Source: Candidatus Saccharimonadota bacterium
Lineage (GTDB): Bacteria > Patescibacteriota > Saccharimonadia > Saccharimonadales > UBA4665
Direction of reading: 5' to 3'
Assembly (NCBI GenBank): GCA_028286245.1
Contig: JAQBRY010000003.1
Span: 1 to 55,952, forward strand
DNA: 55,952 bases
Shown: positions 1,109-55,952 of the stretch, piece after piece
Layout: the number at the start of each line of letters is the position of its first letter
How positions within the stretch are numbered: position 1 is the first letter of the stretch
Notes under the pieces: model-generated
What the model was told of the DNA's origin: nothing
Seen by the model: the letters and a program-made list of their open reading frames with translations, nothing else
Databases searched by the model: none
Position numbers and translations under genes: made by a program

Positions 1109-4100
1109 CTAGCGAGGTTTTGTATCGTTCTTATCTTGATTCGGACCAATTACCGAACCAGGTGCCAGCGGATCACCAGGGAGTCCCCGCAGATCAATGT
1201 CGTCGCCTTCGGCTGCGGCCGGTACCAGCTTTATAAAGCGCCGACGCAGGAAACCTAGGATATGGAAGTGGACGATCACCAGGCCAGCAACAGCAGTAGC
1301 AGAGAGGACCGCCCCAGTCCCGACCGCGTGGGTACGCACCCGGTTGGCAACATCACGCAGTACACCATTGTGAACGATAACCTTCTGGGTGGTAACTTCA
1401 CCGGTTTCATCATTGGTAATCGTAATAGTGTGCACGCCATTGGTAAGCGCTGCCGTATCAATAGTTATACCCGGCGTATCGGTGGATGCTCCGTTGCTAC
1501 CACTTTCATCAACGGATACTTTCACATTATCAACCCGAATGGTCACACTCGAGCCATTAGCGGCCTTGGCCGGAACCACAATCTTAGTACCACCACTCAC
1601 CTTAATAGGCGCTGGTGCCGGGTTATCAACCGAAATGACTTTGGTGGCACCCGGTGGAACAGTAACCGGTACTGGGTGAGGTGACGGAATCGTGGGTGGC
1701 GGACCATTAGTTGGGCCGTCCGGATCCACAACCGTTACTACCGTCAGTGGCTTAGTAAGCGTGTTATTGCTCTCGTCGAGCTCATTTTTGATGCGGTCAA
1801 TATCATCAACATAGGCCAGTACGCTGCGAACGCCAATGCCACTGGCCTTCCATACCGCGGAACCGCTTGGACCCGAGTTAGCCGTGAGCTTAACAGAAGC
1901 GCCGGCGGCCAGTGATGTCGTTCGCCCGTCGCTCCAAGAGACCTGTTTGCCGTCTACCGAGAAGCTCACACCCATAATGGTACCGCTCGGCGTGGCAGCG
2001 GTTCCCTGGTTTTTTACCGTGGCGCTAAAGGTTACATTTTCGCCGGCCTTAGGTGTGAATGGCGACCAGCTCAGATCAGTGAGAACCAGATCAGGCCGAT
2101 TGGTAGGCAGTGGCGTCGTTGGTGGCGGTGTAATAACTGACATGGTTGTAGTCAGCGTGTTATTTGTCTCGTCAAATTCATTTTTGATGCGGTTTATGTC
2201 GTCCACAAAGGCTAGAACGGTTTTTGTACCGGCGGTGGCTGGCCAAACCGCTGACTTACTAGGACCATTGTCGGCAGTGGCTTTTACCGAAGCACCGGCT
2301 GCTAATGGGGATGTAATATTGTCGCTCCAGCTCACTTGTTTACCGTCTACCGAGAAGCTCACACCCATTATAGTATTGGCAGGAGTGGCAGCGCTACCAA
2401 TGTTTTTGACGGTGGCACTAAAGGTCACGTTATCACCAGGCTTTGGGCTGGCGGGCGACCATGTTACATCAGACAGCACTAGATCGGGCTTAGGGGTTGG
2501 CGTGTTTACTGTCAGAACTCGAGTAAGTGTGTTGTTGTTCTCATTGGATTCATTTTTGATGCGGTTTATGTCGTCCACTACGGCAGCAATTGTTTTGGTT
2601 CCGGCGGTTGAGGCGGTCCAGAGAGCCGACTTTGTAGGGCCGGAGTTTGCCGTCACCGTTACCGATGCACCCGGTGCGATGGCTCCTGTTTGCGTATCAC
2701 TCCAAGCGACCTGCTTACCATCAACTAAGAAACTAACGCCGGCAATAATCCCGCTGGTGGTGGCAGCCGTCCCCTGGTTTTTAATAGTAGCCGTAAAGGT
2801 AACTTTGTCATTCACGAGCGGTGAGGCGGGCGACCAGTTAAGCGCAGTCACCACCAAATCCGGGCTGCCGGCAGTTGTAGTAGGAGTTGTAGGAGTGGTT
2901 GGCGTAGGAGTGGGGGTAGGAGTCGGCGTTACTGGCGTAGGAGCTGGAGCCGCTACCGTGGTACCGTCTCGAGCCGAGTTAGCATAGCGGTACATAAAGT
3001 CTTGCACTAATGGGTTTGGCGTTACCGTAGTGCCGTTTACGACCCGCTTAGTGCCATTAGCATAATTAATACTCGCCGATACGGCTCCGTTCTTAAGATC
3101 AAACAGCTGCACGCTTTGCCCGGCTGGCGCGGTATAGCTTTGGGTAACTCCACCTATTGTCACCGAGATTGATTGCGGCGCCGTCAAAAAGCTCACTACC
3201 TCCACCTTGTTACGAGCCGGCCCGCCACTGTTAAGCTTCATAAAGTAGAGCTCCGCCGCGCTCTGGACCGTCGGTTTAGTCGGCGGATAGGTACCAGCAA
3301 ATTCATCACGATTAGAAACGTAGATAACATCACGTTTTATGGCCGGATAAGCACCAAACTTAAAGCGGTGGATGTAGTAGGCGCTTAGATCAAGTAAGCT
3401 GTACCCAATATGGGTTGAGGGGGCGATCTCCGATGTTTCGGCGTAGTCGTTCCAGGTCATCAGCTCAACCCATTCAGCATTATCAATAGCACCGTTCCAG
3501 GTGTTGCGCAGATTTTCTGAGTTATTAGCTTCCCAGTAAGTGCCGTCGGCAATTCCTGCATTACCGCTACCGCCGCGCGGGCGGGTATCTTGTGCTCGCA
3601 CCGGCTGCAGGTAAATAAGCTTGTTGCCGGACTTACCGGTTCGGGCGTGTGCCCGATCGGCAAAGGACTTCATATTAGCAGCTGTATTAACTGTGGCGGA
3701 AGCATCTCCCCAACGGCCCATACCTTCGCTTATGGGGGCATAGGCATTAGCGTTAGTATCGTTAAAGGTTAAAAAGGTGGGCACAAAGTAGGTACCAATT
3801 CCTCGGACTGCCAACTGGGCAATAACTGCCTTCCAATAGTTAACCCCGGCGTCGCCACCTACGTCCTTAGATTCGGGATAAAACGGTGCCATTACAACTT
3901 TGCCGTTCACCTGATAGACAGCACTGCCGTACGGTCCAAGCACCATGTTAGCAATGTAGTCCCCGAGGGCCGTACCATTGGCGTTACCGTCCGGGAGCAC
4001 ACTGGCGTCCGGGACCAGCATAATCTTAAACCCATTGTTCAGTTGGGTTGCTCCTTTTAGGAGCGCTTGTAGGGTTTTATCATTCTGGCTGCCAGCCGTT

Positions 4101-4612
4101 TGGGTTAATAAATCAACGGCAAAGCCGTCAATACCGGCACTGGTAGCATTGCCGATTTCTAACTTAGCATCTTCCGTCTGCCAGTCGACGTTGGCCGGAT
4201 ATTGGCTGCGCTTAAGCGGTCGTTCGCGCCACATGCCGCCTACCTGAGCGTAATCCTTAGCCCCAGCAAAGTTTTCTACCAAACCGGGTGGCACAAAGTG
4301 AGCATCATAGTAATCAGCGCTGCCCATCGGACTATTGCTCTGAGAGATCGGATAGGTCTCCATATAGTGCGCAAAAACTTTTTTGCTAGCGTTTCTAAAT
4401 GTTGCCGTAGACGCCGGATCAAATGGTAACGGGTTAGCCGGCGTACCGCTATCAGCCGAAGCACCCAAATTAGTAATCTTTTTGCCATGAGTGACTTTAT
4501 TGGGCAGCCCAAAGGTCATAATCAGGCCAAAGCCCGTTATCAGGAGCAACAGCAGCGCGCTACTCATGTAAGCCTTTAGTGCCTGGGGATGAATATTACT
4601 TGGTAGTTTCAT
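1109..4612 (-). CDS. surface GH71-family glycoside hydrolase with triple CARDB stalk
   Basis: A 1167-residue protein. Residues 17-35 form an N-terminal hydrophobic segment. Residues 73-540 match GH71 (fungal endo-1,3-alpha-glucanase, mutanase): KKVFAHYMETYP at 77, AGIDGFAVD with D162, and the hallmark TWNDYAE at 386-392 with candidate catalytic E392, followed by a beta domain as in family members. A Pro/Thr linker (551-583) leads to three near-identical CARDB Ig-like repeats (584-703, 708-827, 839-961), then a Pro-rich linker and a beta domain (990-1085). The C-terminal membrane helix (1096-1117) is followed by RRRFIK and a short cytoplasmic tail. The design is a membrane-anchored enzyme or adhesin held off the cell by a stalk. 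There is no LPXTG motif. A paralogous GH71 domain is fused to a pilin at 49773-52346. No clear Shine-Dalgarno is visible. GH71 membership is strong; the substrate is inferred. Confidence 0.85.
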   Translation of the reverse strand: MKLPSNIHPQALKAYMSSALLLLLITGFGLIMTFGLPNKVTHGKKITNLGASADSGTPANPLPFDPASTATFRNASKKVFAHYMETYPISQSNSPMGSADYYDAHFVPPGLVENFAGAKDYAQVGGMWRERPLKRSQYPANVDWQTEDAKLEIGNATSAGIDGFAVDLLTQTAGSQNDKTLQALLKGATQLNNGFKIMLVPDASVLPDGNANGTALGDYIANMVLGPYGSAVYQVNGKVVMAPFYPESKDVGGDAGVNYWKAVIAQLAVRGIGTYFVPTFLTFNDTNANAYAPISEGMGRWGDASATVNTAANMKSFADRAHARTGKSGNKLIYLQPVRAQDTRPRGGSGNAGIADGTYWEANNSENLRNTWNGAIDNAEWVELMTWNDYAETSEIAPSTHIGYSLLDLSAYYIHRFKFGAYPAIKRDVIYVSNRDEFAGTYPPTKPTVQSAAELYFMKLNSGGPARNKVEVVSFLTAPQSISVTIGGVTQSYTAPAGQSVQLFDLKNGAVSASINYANGTKRVVNGTTVTPNPLVQDFMYRYANSARDGTTVAAPAPTPVTPTPTPTPTPTTPTTPTTTAGSPDLVVTALNWSPASPLVNDKVTFTATIKNQGTAATTSGIIAGVSFLVDGKQVAWSDTQTGAIAPGASVTVTANSGPTKSALWTASTAGTKTIAAVVDDINRIKNESNENNNTLTRVLTVNTPTPKPDLVLSDVTWSPASPKPGDNVTFSATVKNIGSAATPANTIMGVSFSVDGKQVSWSDNITSPLAAGASVKATADNGPSKSAVWPATAGTKTVLAFVDDINRIKNEFDETNNTLTTTMSVITPPPTTPLPTNRPDLVLTDLSWSPFTPKAGENVTFSATVKNQGTAATPSGTIMGVSFSVDGKQVSWSDGRTTSLAAGASVKLTANSGPSGSAVWKASGIGVRSVLAYVDDIDRIKNELDESNNTLTKPLTVVTVVDPDGPTNGPPPTIPSPHPVPVTVPPGATKVISVDNPAPAPIKVSGGTKIVVPAKAANGSSVTIRVDNVKVSVDESGSNGASTDTPGITIDTAALTNGVHTITITNDETGEVTTQKVIVHNGVLRDVANRVRTHAVGTGAVLSATAVAGLVIVHFHILGFLRRRFIKLVPAAAEGDDIDLRGLPGDPLAPGSVIGPNQDKNDTKPR

Positions 4613-11759: not shown

Positions 11760-14700
11760 CTAGTGCTCAATGCTCTGTATAAAGTTGCCGTCACGGTCAA
11801 TTAAGATAGTGTCACCCTCAGCTGGCTTGGGTGCAGGTGCAGCCGGTTTTTGTGGAGGAGCGGCTGCGGGAGGAGCGGCCGGAGCTGACTCCGTTGGCAG
11901 CTTAGGTTTAACATCCTTAAGTTGCTGGCGCAACTCGTTAGCAATCTTATCAATCTCATTCTCTTCCAAGGTAGCGCTAGAGATATTATTAGCGCCCTGT
12001 GACGGCGTTTGGGACTGATTTGCGGGATAAGGACTTGTAAACGCAGAAGCCTGTCCTGCAGCCTTAAAATGGTCCTCAGGGATTGCCGCAGGCATGGGCT
12101 GAGACATAGGTTGCTGCATGGACTGCGCAGCACCAATCACCGGCGGCGCGGCGACAGCTGGAGCTGCTTGCATGGGCTGCGCAGCTAGTGGAGCGCTGGC
12201 AGGTTGCACTGGCGCTGACATAGCCGCCGCTGGAGCCGGCGCAGTCTGAACGGGAGCCATTACTTGCGGTGCAGCGGGAGCAAAGCTTGGCGATGGCGTA
12301 CCGGCCTTACGCTTAGTGAGCCAGTCATCAAGGAAGGAGCCGCTTGGCGCCGGTTGACTCGGGGTTGGGGCCATACGGGCCGGAGCGGATGCTGCAGCAC
12401 CAGGTGTTGCAAACGGCGAAGCCGCCGCCGGAAAGGCCGGTTTAGGTACTTCTTTAACCGTCATACGGGCAAAGATCTCTTTCTCGACAATGGCCTTTGG
12501 CCGGCCAAACTTAGCTGATGATAACTGCTTGAGGGCTTCGCCAAGCTGCTTGTTTGGGCTGCCAAGTGGCGGCAGCGTCGTCATACTAAACGGCTGCGTC
12601 GGCACGCCGCCCACCAGCGTTCGAACAATGGCGTTATAGTTTGGCACGCGTAGGAGATCATCAACATCAAAGGTTGGCTGGAAGTACTTACCCAGGCTAT
12701 CAACGTCATTCTGGCCAATACGGAAGCCCACCACGGTACCCATGTTACCAAACACAGCGTCGCGAATTTCCTGTGTTAACTGGGTAGTAAACTGGTTAGC
12801 CACAATTAAGTTCAGGTGATATTTTCGGGCCTCGGACATGATGGTTGCAAAGCTATCGGTAGAAAAGTTCTGGAACTCATCCACGTACAGGCTAAAGTCC
12901 ACGCGGTCCTCTTCGTCAATCGAGGCCCGGCTCATGGCCGCTGCCTGGAACTTCATCACAAAGATCATACCAAGTAATTTGCTGTTCAAGTCCCCTGTTC
13001 GCCCCTTACTCAGGTTTACCAGCAGGATTTTCTTGTTATCCATAATATCGCGTAGGTCAAAGGCCGATTTAGTCTGACCAATGATATTACGCATCATTTC
13101 GTTGCTTAAAAAGGCACCGAACTTACTCACAAACCAGGCTGTCACTTCGCCGGACTCATTAGAACGCTGCGAGTTCGGGAACTGCTTGAGCCAGAAATCA
13201 CGAACCGTCTTATCGGTAACATGCTCCAGCTTTTGCTTCAAAAATTCCGGATCCCGGAACAGCTGCGGAATATCCACAAAGGTACCACCGGCCGGGTCAG
13301 CCATAACGGCTAGGGCGGCGTTACGGAACATATCCTCGTAGCGTGGCCCCATAATTCCCTGGTGCTGCGGATCGTACAGCTTATACAACATGTTCAAGAC
13401 TTCCTGCACCAGAAAGTCTTTTTGATCCGGAGTACTAAATTCAAATAGGTTGAGCCCCATCGGAAAGTCCATATCGGCCGGGCTAAAGTAAATAACATCT
13501 TCGGTACGCTCCTTTGGTACCATGGACAGAAGTTTTTCGGCTGTGTCACCATGCGGATCTACAAAGGCAAAGCCATTACCGTTCAGCATGTCTTGTAGCG
13601 CCAGGTTTTCTAGATAGGTCGACTTACCGGTACCCGTCTGCCCTACCACATACATATGCCGTTGACGGTCACCAAGTGCCAAACGAATCGGCTTTTTAGC
13701 ACCGCGGAAAACGTTGTAGCCCAGCAACAAACCATCATCCGGCATATTACGAGGACCGTCTACCTGTTTAGAATCCTGCCGAACGAGCTGCGTCGTAGGA
13801 ATATTACGCTGATCCGGAAAGTGGAAGAGGGTCGCCAGCTCTACGGAGTTAAGGATGGTCTTGTTACTCTGTTGCGGGAAAAAGCGCATAATATATGCCG
13901 TTGCCAGTGCCGTCGTATCTTTAGCCGGCGAGTACTTAAAGCCATTCTTACCCTGGGAATCGTACAGTGAAAAGCTAGCCACAATACTCTGGAGCACGCT
14001 TTGGGCGCGCTGAGATATGTTAGATGAGGCTACCACTCGAATAAGCACTTCGTAGCCGGGGTGCCGCGTCTTGTCGTCAATGGCATCAAGCACCGCCTGA
14101 TCCAAGTTAGACAGATCCGGGCCCTTAGAATCCCCACCCTCCTTGTGCTCCGGCGGCTTATTAAAGGCAACAATCAGGCTCTTTAGCAGATCACCGCCGC
14201 CCGTCTTCTTATCATTACCCTTGCGCTTTTTGCTGGCAACGCCATGAGCTGTCTTGCGCCACGACGGGTTGGCAGGACGCATTAGTATCTGAATGGCGGC
14301 GCCATCTTCTTTATCGAGTGTCGATAAAGAATTGAGCAGTGACTGCATAGCATCACGCTTAAGGTCAGTATAGGTAGCAATCGGATAGGCAAACGACTCC
14401 TTAAGAGTAAACTCACCACCAAGGGTGGCATTTGCCTTACCTACCGGGTTAAAAATATTGTGTTCAGATACTTCTTCCAGCCGCGCTGCCGGGTAGGCAC
14501 TACTAATGGCTTGCTTTACCACCTCCACGAGCGCAATCGGCACGGCTGCATATAACTGCACAAAGCCTTTTGTACCTACAATCTCAAAGCCAAAATGACG
14601 CTGACCATAGAAGGTGCTCTTAAAACCCTTCTGCGTAGTGCTGGCAATAATATTGTAAATAATCTCTGCCTTACTAATCGTCTCCTGCGTAACATCACGG

Positions 14701-14888
14701 GCATCCCTGCCACCAATATCAATGTCGTCAGAAGTTGGCGGCAAGTGGATTAAAAGCGGGACAATCTTGAGCCCACGCTCATAGTTTTTTTGCTCACGAA
14801 ATGAGCTGCGAATTCGCATAAAAACAAGCGGAGCCGCGATTGCTGCCAGTAGTAATAGTGTCCCAATAATTATTAAGAATGTTGTCAT
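11760..14888 (-). CDS. VirD4/TraD-like type IV secretion ATPase
   Basis: A 1042-residue membrane-anchored ATPase. One transmembrane helix (3-24) precedes a cytoplasmic region. Walker A is GQTGTGKST at 416-424 and Walker B is SLYVDEFQNF at 666-675, in the arrangement of T4SS coupling-protein and HerA-like DNA-pumping ATPases. Residues 840-1042 form a Pro/Ala/Gln-rich low-complexity tail. No other T4SS genes are nearby. The small gene 14895-15302 lies 6 bases upstream on the same strand. Such ATPases move DNA or protein across membranes; here the role (DNA uptake, conjugation or effector export) is open. Confidence 0.85.
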   Translation of the reverse strand: MTTFLIIIGTLLLLAAIAAPLVFMRIRSSFREQKNYERGLKIVPLLIHLPPTSDDIDIGGRDARDVTQETISKAEIIYNIIASTTQKGFKSTFYGQRHFGFEIVGTKGFVQLYAAVPIALVEVVKQAISSAYPAARLEEVSEHNIFNPVGKANATLGGEFTLKESFAYPIATYTDLKRDAMQSLLNSLSTLDKEDGAAIQILMRPANPSWRKTAHGVASKKRKGNDKKTGGGDLLKSLIVAFNKPPEHKEGGDSKGPDLSNLDQAVLDAIDDKTRHPGYEVLIRVVASSNISQRAQSVLQSIVASFSLYDSQGKNGFKYSPAKDTTALATAYIMRFFPQQSNKTILNSVELATLFHFPDQRNIPTTQLVRQDSKQVDGPRNMPDDGLLLGYNVFRGAKKPIRLALGDRQRHMYVVGQTGTGKSTYLENLALQDMLNGNGFAFVDPHGDTAEKLLSMVPKERTEDVIYFSPADMDFPMGLNLFEFSTPDQKDFLVQEVLNMLYKLYDPQHQGIMGPRYEDMFRNAALAVMADPAGGTFVDIPQLFRDPEFLKQKLEHVTDKTVRDFWLKQFPNSQRSNESGEVTAWFVSKFGAFLSNEMMRNIIGQTKSAFDLRDIMDNKKILLVNLSKGRTGDLNSKLLGMIFVMKFQAAAMSRASIDEEDRVDFSLYVDEFQNFSTDSFATIMSEARKYHLNLIVANQFTTQLTQEIRDAVFGNMGTVVGFRIGQNDVDSLGKYFQPTFDVDDLLRVPNYNAIVRTLVGGVPTQPFSMTTLPPLGSPNKQLGEALKQLSSAKFGRPKAIVEKEIFARMTVKEVPKPAFPAAASPFATPGAAASAPARMAPTPSQPAPSGSFLDDWLTKRKAGTPSPSFAPAAPQVMAPVQTAPAPAAAMSAPVQPASAPLAAQPMQAAPAVAAPPVIGAAQSMQQPMSQPMPAAIPEDHFKAAGQASAFTSPYPANQSQTPSQGANNISSATLEENEIDKIANELRQQLKDVKPKLPTESAPAAPPAAAPPQKPAAPAPKPAEGDTILIDRDGNFIQSIEH

Positions 14889-48707: not shown

Positions 48708-48763
48708 ATTCACAAATGTTGTGTCAGAAAAGTTAAGGTTTGCAGGGTGCCAGTCAATCTAAT

Positions 48764-48792
48764 CAGCACCGGCCGGCTAGGAGTCGGTGCTG
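48764..48792. repeat. GC-rich inverted repeat upstream of the Xer gene
   Basis: CAGCACCG (48764-48771) and CGGTGCTG (48785-48792) around 13 nt, just upstream of the Xer -10 region. Role unknown. Confidence 0.6.
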
Positions 48793-48826
48793 GCCGCGAA
48801 GAGGACGACGGCGTACAATAAGGCTT

Positions 48827-49744
48827 ATGTTATTCGCAAAAGCAAAAACGGATTTTTTAGAATATTTAGAGATTGAACAAAACCGTTCGCAGCGGACAAT
48901 TGCCAATTATGATCACTACCTCACCCGGTTGCTGGATTTTGCCGGTGACATTGAAATCCATGAGATTGATGCCGAGCTGATTCGTAAGTGGCGCTTGTGG
49001 CTGAATCGGCTGGGGACTAATACCAGCGATGAGCTGGGTAAAACGACGCAGAATTATCATTTAATTGCGGTGCGCAGCTTTTTAAAGTTTTGCGCTAAGC
49101 GTGATATTACGGCTATGACGGCCGATAAGATTGAGCTGGCCCGTACGCAGCGCAAGCAGGTAACATTTTTAAACGAAGATGAACTGGCGCGGATTTTTGA
49201 GCGCCCGGACATTACCACGCTGGCAGGGCTGCGCGATCGGGCCATTTTGGAGCTGCTCTTTAGCTCGGGGCTGCGTGTGAGTGAGCTGGTGGGGCTTGAT
49301 AAAGATCATATTAATCTCAAGCGCCGGGAGTTTATGGTACGCGGCAAGGGGCAAAAGGATCGGCCAATTTTTATTAGTGCCGAGGCGGCCAACTGGATTC
49401 AAAAGTACCTCGATATGCGAGACGATAATACCCGTCCCCTGTTTCTGCGCTACAGCGGCACCAAAAAAGTTGATCTTAGCGGTAATTATCACCGCTTAAC
49501 TGCCCGCAGCGTGCAACGGTTGGTGGGACGTTACGCACTGATGGCGGGCATTACTAAACACGTTAGCCCGCACACCATGCGTCACTCGTTTGCCACAGAT
49601 TTACTCATGAATGGCGCTGACCTCAGGAGCGTACAGGCCATGCTCGGCCACAGCAACATCGCCACCACACAGATATATACGCATGTAACCGACCCCCATC
49701 TTAAGAGTATCCACGAACGATTTCACGGCAAAGCCGCCCAGTAG
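48827..49744 (+). CDS. XerC/XerD-type tyrosine recombinase
   Basis: A 305-residue recombinase with the N-terminal SAM-like DNA-binding domain (1-95) and the full catalytic set: R150, K174, H249, R252, H275 and Y284 (HTMRHSFAT; LGHSNIATTQIYTH). It most likely resolves chromosome dimers; the orphan context does not suggest a prophage. The ATG at 48827 lies 7 nt after TACAAT with no Shine-Dalgarno; the open frame extends farther upstream but without support. Confidence 0.92.
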   Translation: MLFAKAKTDFLEYLEIEQNRSQRTIANYDHYLTRLLDFAGDIEIHEIDAELIRKWRLWLNRLGTNTSDELGKTTQNYHLIAVRSFLKFCAKRDITAMTADKIELARTQRKQVTFLNEDELARIFERPDITTLAGLRDRAILELLFSSGLRVSELVGLDKDHINLKRREFMVRGKGQKDRPIFISAEAANWIQKYLDMRDDNTRPLFLRYSGTKKVDLSGNYHRLTARSVQRLVGRYALMAGITKHVSPHTMRHSFATDLLMNGADLRSVQAMLGHSNIATTQIYTHVTDPHLKSIHERFHGKAAQ

Positions 49745-49772: not shown

Positions 49773-52346
49773 TTATGGCTCGGTTAGCACACCTGTTCGG
49801 CCCGAGGTATCAAAGAAGTAGTGCAAGTTTTGGACTACAAGCGTTGGCTGTACGTTGTAGGCTGATGTTACCGTAATTTTAGACCCGTCGGAACGATCAA
49901 TTTCGGCACTAACCTCACCCGTATTGAGTGGAACAAGTTTGGCAGAGACTCCTGCCGGTGCGTTATAGGTTGTTACCTGCCCCCCGACTGAGATCTTAAC
50001 TGTGGCTGGATTTGTGAGAAAGGTGAGCGCTTCTACAGTGTCGCGTGGGGCGATTACGCAAGGGGGCTTACCACATTGGGTGGACGGCTTCATAATGAGC
50101 GTCTGTGGACCACTTGGTTTGGCCGCCCACGGCTGGATACGGTGTGAAAGGTAGACGACATCGCGCACAATTGCTGGTGCTCCAAGCTTGTACTTTGTTA
50201 AATAGTACGACGCTAAATCAGTCAGCGACCAACCGATATGCGACGAGGGTCCGATTTCTGAGTTTTCGTAGTAGTCATTCCAGGTGGGGATTTGCACCCA
50301 ATCTGCATTGCCATCAATGGCAGCCTGCCAGGTGACGCGGAAGTTTTCGCTGTTGCCTGCTTCATTGAAAAGACCTGAATATGGACGCTCATCCTGCACC
50401 GATACTGGCTGCATCCAGATCTTGCCAGCTGCGTGTGCGCTGTTAGAAAGCCCTACTTGGCTGCCCTCCTGCCCTGGGTTACGGCTACCCCAAATAGAGT
50501 ATCCGTAGCTAATGGCCGCATACTTGGCTGCATTTGAATAGTTCAATGAGCATGGTATGAAGGCAACTGGTACGCCATTAGCCCTCATTCTGTTTACGAA
50601 TTCAGTCCAATAAGCGACCGTGTCGCCTGAGCCCTTACTGAGCGCTTCCGGATCAAACGGTGACACCACGAGCCGGCCGTCGGGCAAGAACTTTAAGCCA
50701 TTCCGATTGGGGCCCTTGGCCACTGCCGATAAGGTATCTGCCAGAGAGTCTGCCGTATTGCCGAGCGTAGTACCATCAGGCATAAATATAATCTTAAAAC
50801 CGTTATTGAGCTCACTGGCGGCCTGCACCAAGGCCTGTACACGCGGCCAAGTGTTGTTACTAACACTCAACACATCTGTAGTAAAGCCGTCTATGCCGGC
50901 ACCGCTGGCTCGAGTAATTTCGGTCTTCATGTCGGTAAGCAACCAGTCGCCTGGCAGCGGTAATCGTGAAAGCGGTCGGTCACGGATATAACCACCGTAG
51001 GCAGCATGCTTGCCACTCTCACCGTTGACCGTCAAAAAGTTATTGGCATAGTAGTCGTGAGCCGGGTCTTTGTTATCAATAGATATTGGGAAGGAGGGTA
51101 TATAGTGGGCAAAGACTTTTTTAGATGCAGCTTGCAATGTAGTTCTAGAAGGCAGGTCAAATGGTAGTGGGCCAATATCGCCTGATACCGGTACGGTAGG
51201 CGGCGGAACGGTGGGGGGGAGCGGGTAAGGATTTGTTGGTGTTTTAAGGGGCTGGCAGGTATCAAACGTGGACTCGGGACTCATAACGAGTTTTTTACAG
51301 ATACCGCTCAAGCTCTCGAGCCCATACTGAGGATAGTAGGTATTTTTATCCGAGGGAAGGCGAACTTGAATACGCTTAAGGACACCACGGGCGTTGCCAG
51401 TCGAATCGACTGATGTTTGAGCACCGGATATGCGCATAATGTGACCTCCGGCATCGTAGGCCTCTACTTTTACCTTAGAGTTACTATACAGAGAGTTTAA
51501 GCGTAGTAAGTATGATACTGCATTAAGTCCGTTAATTGAGACTGAACAGAAATATGGCCCTTTGGTTGTAGAGCATTTACCATCGTATATCTTACCGGCT
51601 AGTGCCCCCTTGCTGTCCCCGTACGTAGACTGGCCGTCTATCGTACCACTACCATTATCTGCTGGATAGAGGTACGAAGTGTAGGCCTCAGTGGTGAGCG
51701 TGTCGCGCGAAACGGTGGTGAGTGGCGCTAACTGTACACGCAGGATACCGGTGTTAGGATAACCAGTAACGGCGTTCTTCCAGTTAGCTGCCCCAGGGAA
51801 GCTGCCGGCAGCAAACTGTGCGTTTGTAGCAAACGTACTGCCCTCTTTTGTATCTGCCCAGCTCACTACCAATCGAGCAATTGGAGCTGGGGCACCGGTT
51901 ACCGTACTAATACCGGTAATCTTTGCCACTTTACTATTACTATCCTCCGATCCAACGGGTTCATAGAGCAAGTCAGTTGGAGAGGGATCAATAAGGAGAC
52001 AGCTGTAGGTTACCGGGTCGGTAGACGTTGTATCAACGGTGTTATTGGTTAAAAAGCTGACACCCGGATCTGGAGAAGCAGGCAGTGGGGCACAATCAGG
52101 CTTTGCTGAGTTAAAACCGGCATTAATGGCAGCAACGGCGTCGTTAATACCGGATTCAGCGGCATAGTAGGCAGTGTTTGCCAGCTGCTTGTCGAGCGCT
52201 GATTTTTGTTCTTGATTCATGAGCTGGGCAAAGCCGATAGTTAACAGGCTCAAGACTGTTACCAGCACAATGGCAATCACAATCGCAGCAAAGCCGCCCT
52301 CAGAATTCCTCAGCTTTTTACCCATAGGGTTGATGTGAGTAATCAT
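49773..52346 (-). CDS. PilX-like minor pilin fused to a GH71 glycoside hydrolase domain
   Basis: An 857-residue fusion, last gene of the pilus operon. Residues 13-65 are a PilX-type prepilin start (SEGGFAAIVIAIVLVTVLSL, then a helix with QLANTAYYAAESGIN). Residues 85-365 form a pilin-like region with paired Cys. A Pro linker (369-388) leads to a GH71 domain (403-735): KKVFAHYIPSFP, AGIDGFTTD with D486, and TWNDYYE with candidate catalytic E694. A beta domain (770-857) is shared with the GH71 protein at 1109-4612. PilX-type minor pilins sit at the pilus tip, so the enzyme or lectin could be tip-displayed. Co-translated with the upstream PilW-like gene (3-nt gap). GH71 assignment is strong; glucanase activity and tip location are inferred. 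Confidence 0.85.
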   Translation of the reverse strand: MITHINPMGKKLRNSEGGFAAIVIAIVLVTVLSLLTIGFAQLMNQEQKSALDKQLANTAYYAAESGINDAVAAINAGFNSAKPDCAPLPASPDPGVSFLTNNTVDTTSTDPVTYSCLLIDPSPTDLLYEPVGSEDSNSKVAKITGISTVTGAPAPIARLVVSWADTKEGSTFATNAQFAAGSFPGAANWKNAVTGYPNTGILRVQLAPLTTVSRDTLTTEAYTSYLYPADNGSGTIDGQSTYGDSKGALAGKIYDGKCSTTKGPYFCSVSINGLNAVSYLLRLNSLYSNSKVKVEAYDAGGHIMRISGAQTSVDSTGNARGVLKRIQVRLPSDKNTYYPQYGLESLSGICKKLVMSPESTFDTCQPLKTPTNPYPLPPTVPPPTVPVSGDIGPLPFDLPSRTTLQAASKKVFAHYIPSFPISIDNKDPAHDYYANNFLTVNGESGKHAAYGGYIRDRPLSRLPLPGDWLLTDMKTEITRASGAGIDGFTTDVLSVSNNTWPRVQALVQAASELNNGFKIIFMPDGTTLGNTADSLADTLSAVAKGPNRNGLKFLPDGRLVVSPFDPEALSKGSGDTVAYWTEFVNRMRANGVPVAFIPCSLNYSNAAKYAAISYGYSIWGSRNPGQEGSQVGLSNSAHAAGKIWMQPVSVQDERPYSGLFNEAGNSENFRVTWQAAIDGNADWVQIPTWNDYYENSEIGPSSHIGWSLTDLASYYLTKYKLGAPAIVRDVVYLSHRIQPWAAKPSGPQTLIMKPSTQCGKPPCVIAPRDTVEALTFLTNPATVKISVGGQVTTYNAPAGVSAKLVPLNTGEVSAEIDRSDGSKITVTSAYNVQPTLVVQNLHYFFDTSGRTGVLTEP

Positions 52347-52349
52347 AGT

Positions 52350-53162
52350 TTACAGCCTCCTCGTAACAGTAATACTTAATTGACTGGTAGCACAGTATTC
52401 TTGCCCAATACCGCTATTACAGTGCACGTATCCCGCACAGCTTGATTTACCACCCTGCCCGGGGTCACAGACCCCTACCGGTGTTGCCGCCGAAGTTTTA
52501 GCAATTGTTAATAAATCATCATCGCCATAAGCGAGCCAGGCATCTATGCCATAGGTATCACCCGTCGCGTCAATAGACTGTATGAGGAATCTGGTGAGCC
52601 GCATATTTTGTGGGATCAGTTCCTTACCGGTATTAGCAGTGGTGGCGCACAGGCTTGTTGATACCCCCGGGCAGGAACTGGGAGTGGCTGCAGTATTAAT
52701 ATTGAGTGGATAACAGTTACTCGAAGTAGACATTCTGTCTTGCCATAAAACGTGGTAGGCGCCCTGGGCATTTGGCGCTGAAGAGAGTTTAGAACCCAGC
52801 ACGTACGTATACCGAGTAGTACCTATGCAGTAAGCGTAAACGATTTGATTATCACCTCCCGGGCGCGTCTCTACGGCGCTGTGTGCAGCACAGGTGACAA
52901 TACCGGTAGCCGGCATAGCCGCGCACGATGAGGGATCGTCACCGCTAAACTGGAGCGTGTTACTAATTGTACCCACAATGTCCCTGGCAGTCGTTTGAAC
53001 GGCCGCCGAATTAACGCCCTTAGAGTACATCTTGCCGATTTGCAGCATGATAACGCTAGCCATTACCAATAAGACGGATAGCACAGCCAACGAAATCATT
53101 AATTCGACTATGGTAAAGCCAGCCTGGCCGTTACGCGTAGTAGTAGATTGTATTATTTTCAT
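52350..53162 (-). CDS. PilW-like prepilin
   Basis: A 270-residue type IV prepilin. Leader ending in G, then FTIVELMISLAVLSVLLVMA (type III signal with Glu5), followed by a C-terminal domain with several Cys. Minor pilins of the PilW type prime pilus assembly. It overlaps the PilV-like gene by 4 nt. Confidence 0.85.
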   Translation of the reverse strand: MKIIQSTTTRNGQAGFTIVELMISLAVLSVLLVMASVIMLQIGKMYSKGVNSAAVQTTARDIVGTISNTLQFSGDDPSSCAAMPATGIVTCAAHSAVETRPGGDNQIVYAYCIGTTRYTYVLGSKLSSAPNAQGAYHVLWQDRMSTSSNCYPLNINTAATPSSCPGVSTSLCATTANTGKELIPQNMRLTRFLIQSIDATGDTYGIDAWLAYGDDDLLTIAKTSAATPVGVCDPGQGGKSSCAGYVHCNSGIGQEYCATSQLSITVTRRL

Positions 53163-53653
53163 GATTTGTACTGCCTAACGGTAATAGATTCTTGCTGAGG
53201 ACCTCGGCTGCCCGGACCATCCCAGCGAACATAGACTTTAAAGCGATTTGTAAGCGCATCATAGGAAATACTAAGGCGATATAAACCCTGCCCGTTGCCC
53301 TCCAGATCAAGGCCTCGAGTACAAGCGACCGGATATTTGGTGGCATCGTCGGCTGCAGCCGTTGAGGGAGCAGTATAACCGCCGTTTAGGTGCACCGCCG
53401 TGTTTGCGCCAGTCATGCAAAAGCTGCCCTTGCCAGTGTCATACGCCAGGCTGGTGTTGTCCACATTGCGCAGGAGTTCTACCTGTGAACTAATAAATTG
53501 CAGGGCTTCGGAATGCTCCTGCGCTTGGCGAGCGGCCGACAATCCGCGGGTGGCAGTTGAGTACGCCAGAGCAAAAGAAGTGCTGAGGATGGCCAGCACA
53601 ATTAAAACCTCAATAATGGTATCCCCGGCTTGAGCTCGAGAATGGCTTAGCAT
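53159..53653 (-). CDS. PilV-like prepilin
   Basis: A 164-residue minor prepilin. AQAG is the leader end, followed by DTIIEVLIVLAILSTSFALA, then a helix (AARQAQEHSEALQFISSQVE) and a beta domain. The first mature residue is Asp rather than Phe. It overlaps the upstream prepilin by 7 nt and PilW by 4 nt, so all are co-translated. Confidence 0.85.
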   Translation of the reverse strand: MLSHSRAQAGDTIIEVLIVLAILSTSFALAYSTATRGLSAARQAQEHSEALQFISSQVELLRNVDNTSLAYDTGKGSFCMTGANTAVHLNGGYTAPSTAAADDATKYPVACTRGLDLEGNGQGLYRLSISYDALTNRFKVYVRWDGPGSRGPQQESITVRQYKS

Positions 53654-54507
53654 ACCGGATCCCCTACTTTGAGTGTCACCGCTAATTGTTGTCCGTTGGC
53701 GCCGCCAATGGTTATCGATGCCGTATTGTTGTGGCCACCGTCAAAACAAATCTTAAAATTGACACTACCGTACACATCGGCCCCGACGATGTTTTGGATA
53801 TTAGTGAGGGTTGTTGCGACTGGCTGGTTGAGGCTGGAGCCAGGGACACAAGTCATGACAATACTCTGGGCACCGGATTCCAGCTTATTGCCGTTATAGC
53901 TCCCAAAGCCGCCAAAAATACCAATCGCACCCGGATTAGCTGTCAGGCAAGCGGCCGGCAGCGCCGAGCCGGTTGAGCCCTTAGAATTATCAATTATTTT
54001 GGTGGCGACGCTGCCAAAGTGAACCTGATTGTACTCAGTAAGATCGGCTGCCAGCGGATCGGGCGGGCTGGCTATGGCACGCTGATAGGCAGTACCGGCT
54101 GTCCGCCCAAACTCGGTTGCTAATTTACTCTTTGTGTCGTCAGAAAATTGGCGGCCTGCCACCGTAAAGACATTGTATTTAGCACCATTAAACTGCACCA
54201 CCTTGCCCATAAATATGCAGCCCTTGCTCTGCCCTTGCTTGGCACCGGCCACTGTAGTCACCTTGAGGGGACCGGCGGCGGTAGCTGTACAAAAAGTATC
54301 ATTAGCTAGTGTAAAATTGCCATTAGAGACGTCGTCTATAGCACCACGAAGGTGCGTGACCATATCGTTCATGCTTTGCCTAAATTCGGCATTGGCTTGC
54401 TTGCCATTTACAAAGACTCCAGCCACTAGGAACATGCTGCCTGAAATAGCCATGAACAGCATGACTTCAACAATGGTATACCCCCGCGGCAATCGGCCAC
54501 CTTTCAT
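53647..54507 (-). CDS. minor prepilin
   Basis: A 286-residue prepilin. The start is ATG 54507, giving MKGGRLPRG and the mature N-terminus YTIVEVMLFMAISGSMFLVA. A large C-terminal domain with scattered Cys follows. The ATG lies 6 nt after TATAAT preceded by TGC, so the minor-pilin operon has its own leaderless promoter here. Confidence 0.83.
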   Translation of the reverse strand: MKGGRLPRGYTIVEVMLFMAISGSMFLVAGVFVNGKQANAEFRQSMNDMVTHLRGAIDDVSNGNFTLANDTFCTATAAGPLKVTTVAGAKQGQSKGCIFMGKVVQFNGAKYNVFTVAGRQFSDDTKSKLATEFGRTAGTAYQRAIASPPDPLAADLTEYNQVHFGSVATKIIDNSKGSTGSALPAACLTANPGAIGIFGGFGSYNGNKLESGAQSIVMTCVPGSSLNQPVATTLTNIQNIVGADVYGSVNFKICFDGGHNNTASITIGGANGQQLAVTLKVGDPVC

Positions 54508-54568
54508 GGGCCTATTATAGCACAAGCACTATTAGTAACTAGCCCCGTTTCAAGATAAAATTAGCCCA

Positions 54569-55411
54569 TTATTGGAGGATAAAAAATCGTTTGTACCAGT
54601 CTAAAATGTCTGCACCATACAGCTGGGCTATAACCGCTCCGGCTATTAAAAATGGCCCAAAAGGAATAGCTTTTGTAACCTTGATACTGCCTTTTAGGAG
54701 TAACGGCAGCGAATAAAGGGTTCCTAGCAGTGCGGCCGCAAATATAAATAAAAAGCTGAGCGCCGGAGTCCCCACCAGCAGGCCCAGCAACCAGCCCAGC
54801 TTAACGTCGCCGCCGCCGATCCACTTGCCGCCGGATACCTGGAATAGTATGTAAAAGATGCCGCCGCCGAGCATTACAGCCAATAGGGTCAGCACCAAGG
54901 CCTTTGTTGGCTCATCTGCAGCCAGAATATTACTACCAGCAAACACCCCGGCTAAGCAGCCTAGAGGGTACATAATCCGATTAGGCAGCAGCATCCAATG
55001 CAGGTCGTAGACGACTAGGGCCATCAATCCGGTTAGGATGGGTAACCATAGCACAAAGGCAGCTGTACGCAGCCCGTGCAGGTCGTAGGGCCACCAAAGA
55101 TATGAGACGACAAACAGTGTCGCGGTAAGGAGCTCCACTACAGGGTACTGTACCGATATAGGGGTGCGGCAGTAGCGACACTTGCCCCTTAAGAATACCC
55201 AGCTGAGTACCGGAATGAGATCCCAAGCGCTGAGCTCATGCGAACAGTGTGGGCACATGGAGCGGCCCTTACTAATTGACAAGTCCTGCAAGCGCTGCTT
55301 ACTAGTCTTTTTCTTGGCCTGCTCGGTCTCCTGCTCATGGAGCCGCCAGGCCAACGCGTTTACAAAGCTCCCCAGGCATAGCCCAAACACAACCATCATG
55401 GCAATAATCAT
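54569..55411 (-). CDS. pilD: prepilin peptidase
   Basis: A 280-residue polytopic aspartic protease that cuts and methylates prepilins. Zinc-binding CPHC and CRYC pairs, catalytic Asp in VVYDLHWMLLPNR and in GGGDVKLG, and multiple membrane helices. The ATG at 55411 lies 7 nt after TACTAT preceded by TGC; an in-frame TTG 6 nt upstream is less likely. It sits between the major-pilin-like gene and the minor pilins. Confidence 0.93.
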   Translation of the reverse strand: MIIAMMVVFGLCLGSFVNALAWRLHEQETEQAKKKTSKQRLQDLSISKGRSMCPHCSHELSAWDLIPVLSWVFLRGKCRYCRTPISVQYPVVELLTATLFVVSYLWWPYDLHGLRTAAFVLWLPILTGLMALVVYDLHWMLLPNRIMYPLGCLAGVFAGSNILAADEPTKALVLTLLAVMLGGGIFYILFQVSGGKWIGGGDVKLGWLLGLLVGTPALSFLFIFAAALLGTLYSLPLLLKGSIKVTKAIPFGPFLIAGAVIAQLYGADILDWYKRFFILQ

Positions 55412-55432
55412 TAGCAATATAGTAGCACAAAT

Positions 55433-55477: not shown

Positions 55478-55952
55478 CTAGTTGTCGAGACACTTAAGGA
55501 CGTTGCCGCCTGAAGTTTCACTTGCGTAGTAGATTGAAGCGGCTCGTGATGAGTCCTTAAAGGTACCACCGGTAGCAGTGCTACAGGTCTTACCGAGGTA
55601 GACCGCAATTTTTCCAGGAACAGCAGCGCCAGTATCAGCAGTGGTAGGTGCAACTGTCACCGTAGACACTACTGTGCCACCCTGAACTTTAGTAGTCTGC
55701 GTAACTGGAGGGGTAGCAGAATTTTTAATAGTAACTGTCCCCGTACCAGCAACACTGGTAGCAACTGCACCATCATTGTTTGATGCAAATTCACCCAGCC
55801 CACCAGCGATGGCTGATGCGTCGTTCTTCATGGCTGTGTTACGGCTGTTACGCTGCAATGCAGGCACGGCCAATAAGACAATCAAAATAATCAATCCGGC
55901 GATGGCCAGTACGATCATAACTTCGATAATGGTAAATCCACTATCTTTCTTG
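55478..55952 (-). CDS. pilA: major pilin-like protein, 5' end outside window
   Basis: The frame continues past the window edge. The visible N-terminus is KKDSG|FTIIEVMIVLAIAG, a class IVa prepilin cleavage site and hydrophobic helix, followed by a small Thr/Val-rich domain with two Cys near the end (typical PilA disulfide). The internal ATG near 55918 is not the true start. It is followed by a terminator, so it may be the abundant major subunit. Confidence 0.85.
   Translation of the reverse strand, partial: KKDSGFTIIEVMIVLAIAGLIILIVLLAVPALQRNSRNTAMKNDASAIAGGLGEFASNNDGAVATSVAGTGTVTIKNSATPPVTQTTKVQGGTVVSTVTVAPTTADTGAAVPGKIAVYLGKTCSTATGGTFKDSSRAASIYYASETSGGNVLKCLDN

Follow-up and report, generated by a model that had tools for sequence, protein, structure and literature searches.

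Modular type IV pilins are already known. Streptococcus sanguinis PilB and PilC consist of a pilin N-terminus, a linker and a C-terminal module, which is a vWA domain in PilB and a lectin in PilC; the heads bind ligands and have been proposed to be displayed at the filament tip (PMC8179133, PMC9934059). A survey of 2021 lists 264 modular-pilin architectures that include lectins, vWA domains and predicted peptidases, and the word hydrolase is absent from its main text (PMC8179133). In the same phylum as the organism analysed here, Nanosynbacter lyticus TM7x likewise has PilX-type minor pilins with C-terminal domains, a jelly roll on PilX1 and an RCC1-like beta-propeller on PilX2, neither of which is an enzyme (PMC12206443). 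Deletion of TM7x pilX2 roughly halved host binding, and T4P locus one of this organism, which has a retraction ATPase and is essential, is thought to power twitching (PMC12206443).

Glycoside hydrolases of family GH71 are known as free fungal enzymes such as AnGH71C and Schizosaccharomyces pombe Agn1. The assayed GH71 enzymes described in one study cleave alpha-1,3-glucosidic links, and the two fungal members examined acted well on soluble oligosaccharides and little on insoluble alpha-1,3-glucan (PMC12394665). In AnGH71C, mutation of either acid of the dyad D265/E268 reduced activity 6,000- to 15,000-fold. Bacteria account for about half of GH71 diversity, and none of the bacterial members has been assayed (PMC12394665).

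Here, we analysed a stretch of 55,952 nucleotides from a Candidatus Saccharimonadota genome (contig JAQBRY010000003.1), referred to as the window, in which a gene that we term pilX1-GH71 joins a minor pilin to a complete GH71 module. The encoded protein meets the modular-pilin architecture: it has a prepilin N-terminus, a Pro-rich linker and a C-terminal module that is not specific to type IV pili. It differs from PilB and PilC of S. sanguinis in that its head is a complete glycoside hydrolase with a catalytic pair, and from AnGH71C and Agn1, which it resembles in fold and catalytic motif, in that these lack a pilin. Stand-alone GH71 proteins of Actinobacteria and Saccharibacteria carry CBM96, CARDB or PA14 domains in place of the pilin module.

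The author of the preliminary description of the gene was not aware of any described pilus-borne GH71, the novelty being unchecked at that point. No described GH71 pilin or other glycoside-hydrolase pilin was found by title or abstract in the literature searched, which left most subscription papers outside. To our knowledge, pilX1-GH71 would be the first pilus-borne glycoside hydrolase described. The survey signature is IPR012902 and the N-terminus of pilX1-GH71 is matched by PilX_N instead, so that such a fusion would probably not have been counted there, and it is possible that other enzyme-bearing PilX_N fusions exist that the survey does not list.

A minor pilin fused to a complete GH71 module

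The gene and its parts are the following:

49773..52346, minus strand: pilX1-GH71, modular minor pilin with a GH71 head; single ORF with Pfam PilX_N and Glyco_hydro_71 matches
52356..52361, minus strand: AGGAGG ribosome-binding site of pilX1-GH71, read from the sequence, located within the 3' end of the preceding pilin gene
52293..52346, minus strand: leader, residues 1-18, ending in RNSEGG and followed by FAAIV; prepilin-type cleavage site inferred from the sequence, PilX_N match begins at residue 18
52122..52292, minus strand: N-terminal pilin helix alpha-1, residues 19-75 (AlphaFold2 helix 16-75; sequence)
51261..52121, minus strand: globular pilin module of PilX1 type, residues 76-362, common to most genomes of the family; model confidence low
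51177..51260, minus strand: Pro-rich linker, residues 363-390, the junction for grafted heads, where relatives end or switch head
49776..51176, minus strand: GH71 head, residues 391-857, (beta/alpha)8 barrel with C-terminal beta-sandwich (Pfam, AlphaFold2, Foldseek/VIA)
50265..50276, minus strand: D691-Y-Y-E694 catalytic dyad (DxxE), invariant in 86 GH71 rows; dyad role taken from AnGH71C mutants

One continuous ORF of 857 codons starts with ATG 3 bases beyond the stop codon of the preceding pilin gene. PilX_N matched residues 18-67 (E 2.4e-8, 34.3 bits against a cut-off of 25.5) and Glyco_hydro_71 (PF03659) residues 471-820 (4.7e-29, 101.8 bits against a cut-off of 34), the latter near full length, covering profile positions 16-370 of 375. 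The region between the two matches contained no Pfam domain and NCBIfam offered no model for the product. With a GC content of 0.498 and 0.514, the two halves are like the window (0.505). We conclude that pilX1-GH71 is a true fusion of a minor pilin and a complete GH71 module. If the inferred cleavage site is correct, the mature protein lacks Glu at position 5. Tip-type pilins, GspK and PilX among them, characteristically lack this residue.

Alignment with stand-alone relatives showed that the GH71 module is larger than the Pfam match: these proteins share two blocks that precede the match, KKVFAHY and RDRP. The module thus begins at about residue 391 and comprises about 465 residues (391-857), including 80 ahead of the Pfam start. 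A sequence-only search against solved structures retrieved S. pombe Agn1 (5.5e-14) and AnGH71C (2.3e-5). In an AlphaFold2 model built from a 23-row alignment, pLDDT was mostly 85-98 from residue 391 to 857; confidence was low in the globular pilin part, for the folding of which only three sequences were available. The modelled head superimposed on Agn1 (8yfh) with Z 36.9 (378 residues, 2.4 A) and on AnGH71C (9fnf) with Z 35.2, the superposition spanning residues 407-854 at a sequence identity of only about 20%; Foldseek gave a concordant result. The head is therefore predicted to adopt the GH71 fold, a (beta/alpha)8 barrel packed with a C-terminal beta-sandwich.

The motif TWNDYYE occupies residues 688-694. 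In an alignment of 86 bacterial GH71 rows, D691, E694 and also D524 were invariant. Residue 690, N in pilX1-GH71, is S in eight other rows and D solely in the orthologue of a sister species, the motif of which reads TWDDFYE. The GH99 endo-alpha-mannosidases were the next structural relatives (Z 24-25, compared with 35-37 for GH71). Assignment to GH99 was rejected because of this lower score and because the catalytic pair is DxxE and not ExxE, residue 691 being D. That the head hydrolyses alpha-1,3-glucosidic links is inferred; no assay is available, and both the substrate and the cutting itself remain open.

Most of what the preliminary description had claimed about the gene was confirmed. Its position, 49773-52346, held exactly and the strand, which had not been given, is minus; a PilX-like prepilin start in the last gene of a pilus operon was borne out by the PilX_N match and the run of pilin genes, and a complete GH71 domain with TWNDYYE and a C-terminal beta domain by Pfam, the model and the motif. 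The region proposed for a GH71 check, residues 400-860, contains the strong Pfam match. Three outcomes had been named as refuting, namely no significant GH71 match, loss of the catalytic acids or separation of the two halves, and none applied: the match is strong, both acids are kept and the halves form one protein. The statement that GH71 enzymes are mainly fungal failed, given that about half of the diversity is bacterial.

The pilus locus and the orthologue of a sister species

pilX1-GH71 closes a run of genes that begins with pilA, truncated at the contig end, and continues with pilD and three minor pilin genes:

52350..53162, minus strand: minor pilin (N_methyl, Pfam 6.1e-8), directly upstream of pilX1-GH71
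53159..53653, minus strand: minor pilin, PilV-like (N_methyl and TIGR02532, both weak)
53647..54525, minus strand: minor pilin (weak N_methyl; position)
54569..55417, minus strand: pilD prepilin peptidase (Peptidase_A24 and A24_N_bact)
55478..55918, minus strand: pilA-like major pilin, 5' end lost at the contig end (sequence; synteny with positions 14311-14784 of the sister-species locus L009)

A gene for a XerC/D-type recombinase (48740-49744) lies convergent to pilX1-GH71. The neighbouring contig C2 of the same genome (L142) terminates in pilM, N, O, B, T and C, so that pilins and machinery reside on two contigs, linked by synteny only. In the sister species RYN_414 (JAQGGT010000003.1, L009), which is represented by a different MAG within this genus, pilB, T, C, A and D, the pilins and pilX are contiguous without a gap. 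The two contigs of the window genome (C2 and C3) most likely abut between pilC and pilA, with the junction at window position 55952 and the end of L142. Because pilM-N-O-B-T-C ends one contig, pilA lies at the end of the other and the arrangement matches TM7x locus one, we assign the genes to the Saccharibacterial T4P-1 locus. TM7x PilX1 belongs to locus one, to which this operon corresponds; the designation of the pilin as PilX1 is putative and rests on locus layout, not on a sequence alignment with TM7x. Just before pilM, a gene for a secreted-looking protein of 870 residues without Pfam match is present (L142:2510-5122); its C-terminal part resembles, by eye, proteins near pilin genes in another genus member (G003, L026:5625-7535).

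RYN_414 carries the same domain fusion at the corresponding locus. End to end, the two proteins share 71% identity, distributed unevenly as 83% in the GH71 head, 55% in the globular pilin part, or stalk, and 46% in the linker. For reference, PilA is 50%, PilD 68% and GyrA 85% identical between the two species, and the GH71 modules of two stand-alone proteins are 68-70% identical to their RYN_414 orthologues, which makes the pilin-borne head the best kept of three GH71s. A head that approaches GyrA in conservation and exceeds its own stalk, PilA and the stand-alone enzymes is under strong constraint. dN/dS could not be used for this pair since synonymous sites are saturated.

Directly after the fusion gene, RYN_414 has a second PilX1 copy (L009:6188-9061, also in L031), placing two heads next to each other. 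Its pilin part is 46% identical and is followed by a vWA domain and a lengthy C-terminal stretch, the latter having by eye the look of a parallel beta-helix.

Proposed exchangeable heads on PilX1 and the distribution of GH71

Residues 1-368, the PilX1 part, were matched in 78 of the 93 genomes of the family. For the 75 matches of nearly full length, the open frames had a median of 380 residues and only five exceeded 420: the two GH71 fusions, the vWA copy of RYN_414 and proteins of two further genomes, G029 (623 residues) and G020 (513). Three members of the genus, G001, G003 and G005, encode a bare PilX1 pilin at comparable loci. As the headless form is the family norm, the bare pilin is likely ancestral and the heads are likely grafts. 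We consider it likely that PilX1 serves as a platform on which GH71 is one such graft, with vWA and others placed at the same junction. The head of the G020 protein (L117:1426-2964) contains a weak PKD-like domain and that of G029 (L125:1417-3285) a domain without assignment, about 230 residues long. In G005, a PilV-like pilin (L025:6681-8435) has PA14 and carbohydrate-binding CBM60 domains, placing a head on a different minor pilin.

GH71 matches above the cut-off were present in four of 393 genomes of the class, the window genome included, and in one of 380 genomes drawn from the phylum, which was again the window genome. With 1.13 Mb, this genome encodes three GH71 proteins; RYN_414 has four, one of them below the cut-off. 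A search of genome contigs with the GH71-domain alignment yielded 79 loci; a whole-protein search of the same contigs returned no matches, the back-translated peptides probably being too specific. About 60 of the GH71 relatives have an N-terminal extension, in which PilX_N occurred in the window and RYN_414 only and CBM96 in 25, so that within this set the architecture was confined to these two species.

One of the non-pilin GH71 genes lies in the window itself:

1109..4612, minus strand: second, non-pilin GH71, with GH71 and three CARDB domains (Pfam, genome search); not part of the pilus

Its product has a signal-like start and a TM-like C-terminal end, and it has an orthologue in RYN_414, with gyrA as neighbour in both. 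The third GH71 of the genome (contig C4, L013:3123-5849) combines a long Pro-rich linker, CARDB and PA14/GLEYA, and likewise has an orthologue in RYN_414.

Stand-alone GH71s (of Nonomuraea and others, L011 and the two just described) are about 40-54% identical to the pilin head in the GH71 module. In a tree the pilin heads fell among Saccharibacterial GH71s, near actinobacterial ones, which are also the closest relatives outside the Saccharibacteria; since the node is weak (80/73), the donor remains unresolved. A course in which a stand-alone GH71 was gained from Actinobacteria, duplicated and then fused to PilX1 is plausible, donor and order being inferred. Weak GH71-like matches in G092 (contig C19, L030) and G309 (L029) lie on foreign-looking contigs and may reflect MAG contamination.

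Putative function of the GH71 head and alternative explanations

What is shown is the fusion itself, its fold, a dyad that is intact, the setting in the operon, conservation across two species and constraint on the head. On this basis we consider it likely that pilX1-GH71 is a T4P-1 minor pilin displaying a GH71 enzyme or adhesin for alpha-1,3-glucan-like glycans; assembly, tip placement, catalysis, substrate and role are inferred. In this reading an ordinary PilX1 would have received a stand-alone secreted GH71 at its C-terminus by way of the Pro-rich linker. Helix alpha-1 and the globular module would be processed by PilD and built into the T4P-1 filament, most likely at or near its tip, a place suggested by the missing Glu5 together with the bulky head, which would be displayed extracellularly. 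There it would attach to alpha-1,3-glucan or a similar alpha-glycan, be it of a host cell, fungal wall or biofilm, and cleave it by the inverting DxxE mechanism, and PilT-driven retraction would draw the cell towards that surface. The preliminary description had suggested gripping or digesting of glucan-coated hosts or biofilm, which remains inference as far as activity, substrate and pilus assembly are concerned. The low identity to solved GH71s and the N690D exchange of the orthologue next to the dyad call for caution.

The head could instead be a lectin-like adhesin that grips alpha-glucan, with hydrolysis weak or irrelevant. This is possible, given that those modular pilin heads whose function has been tested are ligand binders, adhesive vWA and ConA-like modules among them (PMC8179133, PMC9934059), that the neighbouring PilX1 copy of RYN_414 carries a vWA domain and that the orthologue has an unusual residue beside the dyad. 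However, DxxE and D524 are invariant, orthologue included, a dyad would be superfluous for a pure lectin, and evolution of the head has been slower than that of the stand-alone GH71s. It is also possible that the substrate is another alpha-glycan, such as a glycan of an actinobacterial host, the capsule of the cell itself or a mannan-type glycan as in GH99. The GH99 endo-alpha-mannanases come next in structure (Z about 24), the specificity of bacterial GH71s is unestablished (PMC12394665), and the nearest outside relatives are actinobacterial while cultivated Saccharibacteria live on Actinobacteria (PMC10633639). Against this, fold and DxxE are those of GH71 and not of GH99 with its ExxE, Z being about 12 higher for GH71, and the assayed GH71s cleave alpha-1,3-glucosidic links.

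We regard it as unlikely that the protein is not assembled into a filament at all and that the N-terminal helix serves merely as a membrane anchor for a GH71 ectoenzyme or that the head is cleaved off and released. In favour of this idea, TM7x PilX1 and PilX2 lack a predicted PilD signal (PMC12206443), the long Pro-rich linker is potentially cleavable and stand-alone extracellular GH71s occur in the same genome. On the other hand, a whole PilX1 module of about 360 residues that is found family-wide has been retained in a pilin operon beside pilD, and the leader and alpha-1 helix are prepilin-like, which a simple anchor would not need. An assembly chimera or two separate genes can be all but excluded. 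Apart from the draft status of the genome (4 contigs) no support was found for it; a single ORF with one ribosome-binding site, recurrence of the junction in a second MAG and a GC content of both halves like that of the window speak against it. The RYN_414 orthologue refutes a chimera unless both assemblies share one error.

We therefore retain the pilus-displayed GH71 as the preferred reading, with a fusion that is solid and unusual and an enzyme action on the pilus that is unproven and inferred. A bolder version, for which we would not go as far as calling it probable, is a retractable pilus tipped with an alpha-1,3-glucanase that would open the glucan coat of a fungus, actinobacterium or biofilm while retraction pulls the cell through, PilX1 heads being swapped to alter host or surface range. 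The way in which ultrasmall epibionts find and contact their hosts is still mostly unsettled, and PilX1 heads bear on this question: at the same operon place, most relatives encode this pilin without a head and a few encode it with GH71, vWA or another domain attached. This suggests head exchange as a means of changing the target surface. The GH71 head predicts a specific, directly testable ligand. If the preferred reading is true, the bacterial GH71s would gain a clear biological setting.

No GH18 chitinase was found by domain search in the window genome and a complete fungal-wall arsenal is hence unsupported. Genes for a polysaccharide deacetylase, a glycosyltransferase 2, a GH16 and a GH6 cluster on contig C4 (L143:960-7269). 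Attack on extracellular polysaccharide fits with the GH16, the GH6, the deacetylase and the two further GH71s, and such a lifestyle appears likely, with a fungal host merely one option. In G092, another Saccharibacterial MAG, a stand-alone GH71 gene (L028:2-967) follows a GH16 gene, bringing two glucanase-type families together.
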